NCBI GenBank assembly: GCA_902775375.1
Contig: CACYLU010000004.1
Location: 99,384 to 163,383 of the forward strand
Length of the DNA stretch: 64,000 nt
DNA from: an uncultured Bacteroidales bacterium
GTDB taxonomy: Bacteria > Bacteroidota > Bacteroidia > Bacteroidales > Bacteroidaceae
Direction of reading: 5' to 3'
Shown: piece after piece, positions 22,196 through 51,410 of the stretch
How the letters are laid out: each line of letters opens with the position of its first letter
How positions within the stretch are numbered: the stretch's first letter is position 1
The notes under the pieces: model-generated
What the model was told of the DNA's origin: nothing
Seen by the model: the letters and a program-made list of their open reading frames with translations, nothing else
Databases searched by the model: none
Position numbers and translations under genes: made by a program

Positions 22196-22267
22196 ACGAC
22201 TGCTTTTGTAAGCACCGTTTAGTTTGCTTTGGATGAATAATTAATTGTAACAATAAGTCAAAGATCG

Positions 22268-22333
22268 TTTTGCGGAAGTAAAAGGTGGTTTTAGCGGAAC
22301 TAAGCCGCCAGTTTAGTTGGACTAAGCGTTCCG
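22268..22333. repeat. Three-unit 22-bp repeat array (composite element A, part 1)
   Basis: Units start at 22268, 22290 and 22312, each 22 bp. The best conserved part is TTTAGnnGnACTAAGC in units 2 and 3; unit 1 is diverged (TTTTGCGGAAGTAAAA). The core TTAGTnnnACTAA of unit 3 is itself palindromic. Exactly 22 bp after the last unit, the 8-bp array begins. Confidence 0.75.
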
Positions 22334-22355
22334 AGTAGTGGTGACCCCTATAGTG

Positions 22356-22391
22356 CAATAGTAACAACGTAACATAGTAACATCGTAACAT
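22356..22391. repeat. 8-bp repeat array, left arm of composite element A
   Basis: Four 8-bp repeats of the type CATAGTAA/CAACGTAA/CATCGTAA end in CAT. The same array occurs inverted at 22520-22554. Confidence 0.85.
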
Positions 22392-22431
22392 CTTATTTTC
22401 TAAATTTTGCACACTTTGTTAGAGATTAATT

Positions 22432-22477
22432 TTTTATATTTATATATATAATATATATTATATATATAAATATAAAA
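22432..22477. repeat. 46-bp perfect AT palindrome (composite element A, core)
   Basis: Every base from 22432 to 22477 pairs with its mirror partner around 22454.5, with no loop and only A and T. It could extrude as a cruciform. It lies centrally between the two inverted 8-bp arrays (40 bp on the left, 42 bp on the right). Confidence 0.95.
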
Positions 22478-22519
22478 GTTATATTCTTGGTTGCTTGTTG
22501 CTAAAAATGAAAAAAGTAA

Positions 22520-22554
22520 ATGTTACGATGTTACTATGTTACTATGTTACGTTG
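22520..22554. repeat. 8-bp repeat array, right arm of composite element A
   Basis: ATGTTACG-ATGTTACT-ATGTTACT-ATGTTACG-TTG. Its reverse complement equals the left arm (22365-22391) with one extra CATAGTAA copy. Confidence 0.9.
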
Positions 22555-22676
22555 GTCTGTCTGTTATGTTCTCAATGTTTAATCTTCACCTCCCTATGAA
22601 AAAAAAATTAACTTTCATAGTATCTATGTCTGTTAACTCCACATTGCAGTGCTTTGCTTTATTTTCCTCTTATTAT

Positions 22677-48256: not shown

Positions 48257-48322
48257 CTTAGTTCTAGTAAGCAGGCCGTTTAGTTCTAGTAAGCAGGTGG
48301 TTTAGTTCTAGTAAACGGGTTG
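48257..48322. repeat. Three-unit 22-bp repeat array (composite element B, part 1)
   Basis: Units start at 48257, 48279 and 48301. TTTAGTTCTAGTAAGCAGG is nearly identical in all three (the first begins with C, the third has AAACGGG at its end). The same TTTAG...TAAGC frame is seen in element A at 22290-22333. Confidence 0.9.
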
Positions 48323-48326
48323 CTTT

Positions 48327-48358
48327 CTTACATTCTAACATTCCAACATTCTTACATT
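48327..48358. repeat. 8-bp repeat array, left arm of composite element B
   Basis: CTTACATT-CTAACATT-CCAACATT-CTTACATT, four contiguous 8-bp units. Confidence 0.9.
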
Positions 48359-48397
48359 AAGGTCCTAGCATATATGCAGTGAATAACCTGAGAGGAT

Positions 48398-48445
48398 TAA
48401 GAAGAATAATATAATATATAATTATATATTATATTATTCTTCTTA
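48398..48445. repeat. 48-bp perfect palindrome (composite element B, core)
   Basis: Every base from 48398 to 48445 pairs with its mirror partner around 48421.5, with no loop. It is AT-rich with two G/C pairs near each end. It lies about 39 bp after the left 8-bp array and 30 bp before the right one. Confidence 0.95.
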
Positions 48446-48475
48446 TACTGTCATGGGATGGTGTGGAACATCCTT

Positions 48476-48510
48476 ATTGTAAGATTGTAAGGTTGTAAGA
48501 TTGTAAGATT
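48476..48510. repeat. 8-bp repeat array, right arm of composite element B
   Basis: ATTGTAAG-ATTGTAAG-GTTGTAAG-ATTGTAAG-ATT. Its reverse complement is CTTACAAT-type, one base different from the left-arm unit CTTACATT. Confidence 0.9.
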
Positions 48511-48518
48511 TTGTTTTT

Positions 48519-48672
48519 TAACCTCTATGGTTTGCTCCCTGCATCCTTATGATTTTCAGGCTGTAATCCTGTGGTTTGGAGGCTGCAGACCTATGGCTTA
48601 GAGGGTGCAAACCTATGGTTTGGAGGGCGATAACCTATGCTTTAGAGGGCATTAACCTATGGGTTAGAAGCC
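48519..48672. repeat. Seven-unit 22-bp repeat array downstream of element B
   Basis: The anchor CTATGG (with variants) recurs at 48525, 48547, 48569, 48591, 48613, 48635 and 48657, an exact 22-bp step. The consensus core is AACCTATGGTTTAGAGG, which contains the palindrome AACC-TAT-GGTT. It lies between the convergent ccsA and rsmE genes. Confidence 0.9.
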
Positions 48673-51324: not shown

Positions 51325-51410
51325 GGCATAAAAAAGAAGGGTATCTATCTCAGACACCCAATCTTTATCAACCTTAAATCTAATACCATGAAAAACACAG
51401 TGCAAAGGTA
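51325..51410 (-). ncRNA. Candidate small RNA or leader with its own promoter and terminator
   Basis: On the minus strand a TACCTTTG -7 element (51410-51403) is followed about 45 nt later by a terminator (GGGUGUCU/AGAUACCC with a 5-nt loop, then UUCUUUUUU, 51359-51329). The predicted transcript is about 65-70 nt. No start codon followed by a useful frame is obvious. It lies between the rlmI-like gene and the transporter gene on the same strand. It could be an independent sRNA, or a long leader ending in a conditional terminator upstream of the transporter. Confidence 0.4.
51329..51359 (-). terminator. Rho-independent terminator upstream of the nucleoside transporter
   Basis: An 8-bp stem with one G-U pair and a 5-nt loop, followed on the minus strand by TTCTTTTTT. 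It could end the candidate small RNA or the rlmI transcript. Confidence 0.7.

Follow-up and report, generated by a model that had tools for sequence, protein, structure and literature searches.

Near 22 kb in a stretch of 64,000 nucleotides from an uncultured Bacteroidales bacterium (hereafter the window), degenerate 22-bp units, two short arrays in opposite orientations and a long palindrome follow one another. What kind of element has this plan, and what keeps it symmetric? The first-pass annotation had described the locus, here element A, as a 46-bp perfect A/T palindrome between inverted 8-bp arrays, and this description stands, with palindrome arms that are 100% complementary. The parts of element A are as follows.

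22231-22274, plus strand: left-end module remnant (AATAAGTCAAAGATCG...), which matches the full-length copy on contig C17 at its left end (98%)
22268-22333, plus strand: three degenerate 22-bp units, read by eye and by period-22 score
22358-22392, plus strand: left short array of four GTAAC units, from tandem-repeat and array detection
22393-22431, no strand: left spacer, the inner 33 bp of which lack complementarity to the right spacer (spacer comparison)
22432-22477, no strand: 46-bp perfect A/T palindrome, from palindrome search and shuffle control
22478-22519, no strand: right spacer (spacer comparison)
22520-22551, minus strand: inverted short array of four units, from tandem-repeat and array detection
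22567-22630, plus strand: right-end module common to other copies in the genome (83% matches, query 313-376, in C2 and C19)

The palindrome consists of two 23-nt arms without a loop, made of A and T only. The left 8-bp array starts at 22358 or 22361, depending on the call, and ends at 22392; the spacers measure 39 bp on the left and 42 bp on the right. In the source genome each arm carries four GTAAC/GTTAC units, and the two arms are out of register by one unit. The extra 8-bp copy previously counted on the right arm is therefore not present in this genome, and four versus five units is instead the state of the element A orthologue in genome G027. The three 22-bp units formerly placed at 22268-22333 were recovered by reading, with a period-22 run score of 14. 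The left-end remnant abuts them directly, and fuller copies are a few hundred bp longer at this end.

A second locus near 48 kb had been said to repeat the plan with different letters, which proved correct. This element B spans 48258-48668.

48258-48323, plus strand: three 22-bp units (TTAGTTCTAGTAAGCAGGCCGT); the tandem-repeat call extends to 48314, the third unit to 48323 by reading
48325-48358, plus strand: left short 8-bp array (TTCTTACA), from tandem-repeat and array detection
48398-48445, no strand: 48-bp perfect palindrome, not purely A/T, with two G-C pairs per arm among A-T pairs (palindrome search)
48476-48510, minus strand: inverted short array (ATTGTAAG), from tandem-repeat and array detection
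48558-48668, plus strand: second 22-bp array, unrelated in sequence to the first (AACCTATGGTTTGGAGGGC), from tandem-repeat call, reading and period score

Element A is flanked by genes for a zinc-type alcohol dehydrogenase and for a protein of 267 aa that matched no Pfam family at E 0.001. Next to element B lie genes for a cytochrome c assembly protein and for an RNA methyltransferase. The neighbouring genes provide no functional clue. A paralogue of element B lies outside the window (G000 C4:70859-71138; L032, L090). It is 91% alike over query 2-281 and has a degraded palindrome with an arm of 6.

Neither locus resembles chance sequence. In 40 Markov resamples of the window, run with the array setting of the main detector counts, the longest loopless arm was 11 and there were no inverted-array pairs, and 1000 shuffles of 22351-22560 also gave a longest arm of 11. 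Shuffled sequence totalling 2.18 Mb, searched with a stricter array setting, contained no inverted-array pair. Folding as single-stranded DNA gave z-scores of -9.7 for element A and -8.1 for element B, and none of 200 shuffles was as good in either case.

The source genome is a draft of 2.43 Mb in 25 contigs. Similarity searches across it returned 72 matches with element A and 47 with element B, mostly partial and including the queries themselves. Reading these copies revealed a composite order, from a left module through the 22-bp array and the hairpin to a right-end module. Element A lacks most of the left module, and other modules are missing from some copies. The hairpin and the 22-bp array can occur apart. 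Other sites in the genome also match the 22-bp arrays, and two of them, in C10 and C8, were read without a hairpin; three Segatella copri hairpins lack a 22-bp array of the window's type. The left module carries a putative leftward promoter-like sequence of the Bacteroidales consensus type. In the last ~400 bases of L196 this sequence lies, by eye, directly upstream of an ORF beginning MAKEKIALGINLRQNK, which presumably resembles a Bacteroidetes HU-like protein. A reading of the left module as an rRNA leader was abandoned once a contig end had been inspected.

To find copies irrespective of their letters we used a structure-only detector, which requires a tandem unit of 6-11 bp, its inverse downstream and, between them, a palindrome with an arm of at least 9. 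It identified 12 elements in about 0.93 Mb (~38% of the source genome), 10 of them in 530 kb chosen by similarity (window included) and two in 400 kb from elsewhere in the genome. These last two copies, L332 and L339, are absent among the similarity matches listed. Twenty other genomes of the same genus, complete or nearly so, contributed 780 kb in which no element was detected; this sequence holds one inverted-array pair and one A/T palindrome, both without the plan. The similarity-chosen stretches of the source genome contain 16 A/T palindromes with an arm of 11 or more, and 10 passed the strict rule. L094, L101, L106, L109 and L102 had short arrays when read, yet were below a threshold, and the A/T palindrome at 6731-6754 of L091 lies inside a left module and lacks arrays. 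In G027, four of the seven A/T palindromes passed. A second set of loci (L111, L112, L117, L121, L122 and L123) has inverted 7-10 bp arrays of the GTGAAGAG type around palindromes that contain G and C, possibly a sister class of elements.

The plan extends to other genomes. We scanned 84,980 species for exact matches to a single palindrome core; the scan covers one palindrome type and may omit records very close to that of the window. It gave seven hits in five genomes: RUG12436 (our G027, three hits), RUG197, S16M_St_61, S. copri iAQ1173 and Candidatus Liminaster caballi. Three of these five are uncultured Bacteroidales. Inverted arrays accompany all seven hits (six by a looser detector setting and L215, the same site as L194, by reading), those of S16M_St_61 being weak, with about two units a side. 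Other palindrome types also exist. S. copri carries three copies with the plan, and sister Segatella genomes contain further copies with the units ACTCAATT, TGTGACA and ACAGTATC. The Segatella relative G570 yielded a single, weak instance of the plan (L285) in 300 kb, where six other inverted-array pairs failed the palindrome rule. A family-wide search with a palindrome pattern matched two of 399 genomes, one being the source genome and the other a locus (L242) that reads like the one of S16M_St_61. An array pattern searched in 158 genomes of the genus matched 18 loci in eight genomes; 10 loci (6 distinct elements) had the plan, seven had no pair and one (L231) had an unrelated pair.

Plasmid and phage collections gave no match with a 741-bp full-length copy as query. 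Two viral contigs matched the palindrome pattern, each with a different palindrome and, according to the detector, no arrays, and were rejected. Contigs C13, C24, C45, C59 and C75 of G006 (L223, L233, L237) carry multi-copy 29-bp near-palindromes in which two GTTAC and two inverted GTAAC units adjoin directly; several of these near-palindromes lie close to the end of a contig. The first-pass annotation had proposed that element A is not a chance arrangement, and would have abandoned the idea of an element had no further copy of the plan turned up. Copies were found by structure in the source genome, in relatives and in other genera, and the idea survives.

Which features are kept, and which vary? 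We compared 36 elements, orthologues and paralogues included and degenerate ones excluded. They were chosen for having a palindrome, so their symmetry is partly a product of sampling, and their counts are not independent. Excluded from the list are C17, C9 and B2, whose palindromes are short or degenerate, another hairpin of RUG197, its second (L216, 5657-5805), and weaker pairs from the detector such as L117, L208, L270, L274, L278, L279 and L282. The core, i.e., array, spacer, A/T palindrome, spacer and inverted array, measures about 135-230 bp, with spacers mostly of 30-60 bp. The array unit of 6-9 bp varies among copies, yet is identical, in inverted form, on both arms of each. A single genome contains GTAACATC, GATTACA, GTTGCAGTT, CATCACCT, TCAGTAGTT and more. 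The palindromes vary as well in letters and length, and 35 of the 36 are distinct; in this sample picked for its palindromes, 23 are loopless and 13 have a small loop. The spacing between array and palindrome is roughly constant. The arms are complementary in all 28 elements scored (z 3.9-16.1), and the inner spacers exceed a z of 2 in only two of these 28.

The array adjoining the hairpin behaves in a similar way. Its best period is 22 in 22 of the 36 elements and 23 in two, the control being flat, and a 22-period score of at least 20 was reached by 7/36 elements and 4/360 random positions. Many of the 36 share the TTTAGCGG array type; in B, L332, L339, G066 and G115 the 22-bp runs differ from it in sequence. 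The period peaks at 19 in L. caballi, 21 in G533 and S16M, and 23 in G592.

Comparisons of closely related copies indicate how the letters change. At locus A, the source genome and G027 are 92% alike over 10 kb, and the palindrome carries one mirrored double substitution. Two S. copri palindromes also differ by one mirrored double change. No other loopless pair of equal length shows few differences, and each of these two differs at exactly two mirror-image positions. The arrays of C12b and C13 show an A/G difference in three of three left units and its complement in three of three right units. One-sided changes occur too: the array count of four versus five at A, and the loss of one unit and of 3 bp of palindrome at C19. 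Larger replacements were also observed. The orthologous sites C12a/L194 and C12b/L197 hold different hairpins, and the spacers of the G027 hairpins at C12a and C12b match other copies (of the C2b and C2a types, z 6.1-8.9), which indicates that the hairpin changes as a cassette. In L350 and L351 (G066, G013), the gene that comes after C12b in the source genome is preceded by repeats of the CAGCTCCGACC type, unrelated in sequence and spaced by ~22 bp by eye.

Among the earlier guesses on the nature of element A, a non-autonomous mobile element has fared best: two copies in one S. copri genome (L268 and L269) are 87% alike over 192 bp, the similarity stops at the arms and their flanks are unrelated. 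The comparisons made at A, at C12b and beside one S. copri copy revealed no clean empty site, but in each of them a flanking gene differs. The 19 sister loci that match the right neighbour of the S. copri L218 hairpin all lack an A/T palindrome with an arm of 12 or more. Their left neighbour differs from that of the L218 site, so this absence fits gain or loss and does not amount to a clean empty site. The flanks of L269 were matched in none of 119 other genomes at E 1e-15, and no target-site duplication was seen by eye around three S. copri copies.

We found no description of this element in the open-licence literature searched, and Bacteroid-, Prevotella and Segatella are not mentioned in the accessible part of PMC13155455. 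Going by the accessible part of its description, BrickBuilt is the nearest described relative in kind, also from Bacteroidales, with a different repeat period and plan. BrickBuilt MITEs of Porphyromonas gingivalis are intergenic and composite, with 23-nt tandem units of a single repeat type, a leader and a tail, IS5-like terminal repeats (GAGACCTTTGCA), predicted long stem-loops and promoter activity of segments, in 19 copies in one genome (PMC4596501). Inverted short arrays around an A/T palindrome are not among the features described there, as far as the accessible text extends (PMC4596501). Judged from that description, the 23-nt feature also differs, since the best period here is 22 in most elements and the unit is unrelated in several copies. 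The GAGACCTTTGCA repeat was not noticed at the ends of copies read by eye.

Like MITEs in general, the elements are short, non-coding, A/T-rich and present in several copies, 12 in the ~38% of the genome covered with cores of about 135-230 bp. As for terminal inverted repeats, inverted arms are present, and their sequence differs in each copy. The element works like a foldback MITE, and we class it as MITE-like only, having found neither a clean empty site nor a target duplication nor a parent. In the Drosophila elements Foldback (FB) and Galileo, a middle segment lies between inverted repeats that contain tandem subrepeats; in contrast to the hairpins, these elements are eukaryotic and much larger, and their copies have letters in common. 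TAACTGA direct repeats of Beggiatoaceae are reportedly intergenic, with one fixed 7-bp unit. They resemble the hairpin arrays as intergenic short direct repeats, whereas an inversion around a palindrome is not mentioned for TAACTGA in the accessible part of its source. REP/BIME sequences, and REPINs with their RAYT transposases, are dispersed intergenic palindromic DNA with short conserved palindromes in high copy number, a feature at odds with the diversity of palindromes reported above. Rfam 15 gave no match above the family threshold in 17 source stretches, some of them overlapping. The only Rfam match in the window is FopS (51327-51398, minus strand, 73.7 bits), which belongs to paralogous Bacteroidetes sRNAs. 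REP/REPIN families, invertible switches and Rfam families thus each differ from the hairpins in a feature that was tested.

Several processes might produce such a layout. The arrays could be iteron-like binding sites, with a palindrome that nucleates or bends DNA for a nucleoid, partition or regulatory protein. The roughly constant distance between arrays and palindrome suits such a site, as does a prevailing period of 22 bp, i.e., two helical turns, in the adjoining arrays (22/36). However, a single protein could hardly read by sequence all the units that occur among the copies of one genome, and we consider this explanation unlikely. The hairpins might otherwise mark the ends of transposons from a single-strand (HUH/Y1 or REPIN-like) family whose mobility requires a folded hairpin. 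A hairpin kept without its sequence, the unrelated flanks of copies and the lack of visible target duplications would agree with such an origin. A scan for the motif N-H/D-x-H in about 0.93 Mb (38%) of the source genome gave nine matches, though, none of which was judged a Y1 transposase, so that no RAYT (Y1) protein was recognised by motif in this part of the genome. REPs and REPINs keep their sequence and these hairpins do not; we regard this origin as rather unlikely.

Selection on RNA folding, with the hairpin as a terminator, an insulator or a 3' stabilising structure, would explain why 26/28 elements are not spanned by a candidate ORF (the exceptions, C1 and S16M, have one each) and why few sit between divergent genes (two among the 26 for which both neighbours could be assigned, for an expected fraction of 0.242; p 0.03 with related copies counted). 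Yet mismatches between arms comprise 32 G-T, 38 A-C and 121 other pairs, some of them counted beyond the arrays. There is no G-T excess and hence no sign of selection on RNA pairing, and the absent G-U bias points to a process at the DNA level. The palindromes, mostly A/T only, are also unlike a terminator, and the source stretches have no Rfam match; an RNA-level origin is quite improbable. An invertible, phase-variable segment could be bounded by the inverted arrays, which enclose roughly 120 bp, but the interior has the same orientation relative to the 22-bp array in all seven related pairs among 19 orientable elements (none inverted), and we regard such a switch as very improbable. Finally, A/T drift or an assembly artefact may be invoked because the source genome is a draft and several relatives are metagenome assemblies. 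The plan never arose in shuffles and occurs in the record of an S. copri strain as well as in separate assemblies. Its recurrence refutes an origin by chance or artefact, which we find hardly credible.

On balance, we favour a dispersed, non-autonomous foldback (MITE-like) element of Bacteroidales, intergenic in location, of which A and B would be copies and which would be shaped by template switching between its arms and by recombination between sites. Single-stranded or extruded DNA of the element would fold with the array paired to its inverted array as a basal stem, the spacers as an open internal loop and the palindrome as an apical stem. The letters drift, and a change in one arm tends to recur in the other and, in the arrays, in every unit. 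Slippage within the arrays and template switching by the polymerase from one arm of the extruded hairpin to the other may account for this behaviour. Template switching homogenises the arms of inverted repeats according to the accessible parts of two studies (PMC8604942, PMC8794818). Whole hairpins are also replaced at fixed sites, probably via recombination through the common 22-bp arrays and end modules. Against template switching, the inverted interiors that it predicts were not seen in any of the seven related pairs, and selection for the hairpin could be an alternative source of the mirrored changes. More tentatively, and with some doubt, the class may be defined by its format and not by its sequence: each copy would have its own unit and palindrome, inherit the self-complementary layout and have it rewritten from arm to arm by its own hairpin, next to a 22-bp array that keeps its period and changes its letters.

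A layout that stays constant while its letters change, often in mirrored fashion, makes these loci of gut bacteria well suited to studies of how repeated DNA stays symmetric. Searches by sequence similarity can miss such elements, as exemplified by L332 and L339. Mirrored changes of the 'compensatory' kind need not mean selection on RNA. If the arms are rewritten by template switching, the loci would be natural recorders of this process in bacteria, with the array units as built-in markers, and they occur in S. copri, a species for which strain collections are held.
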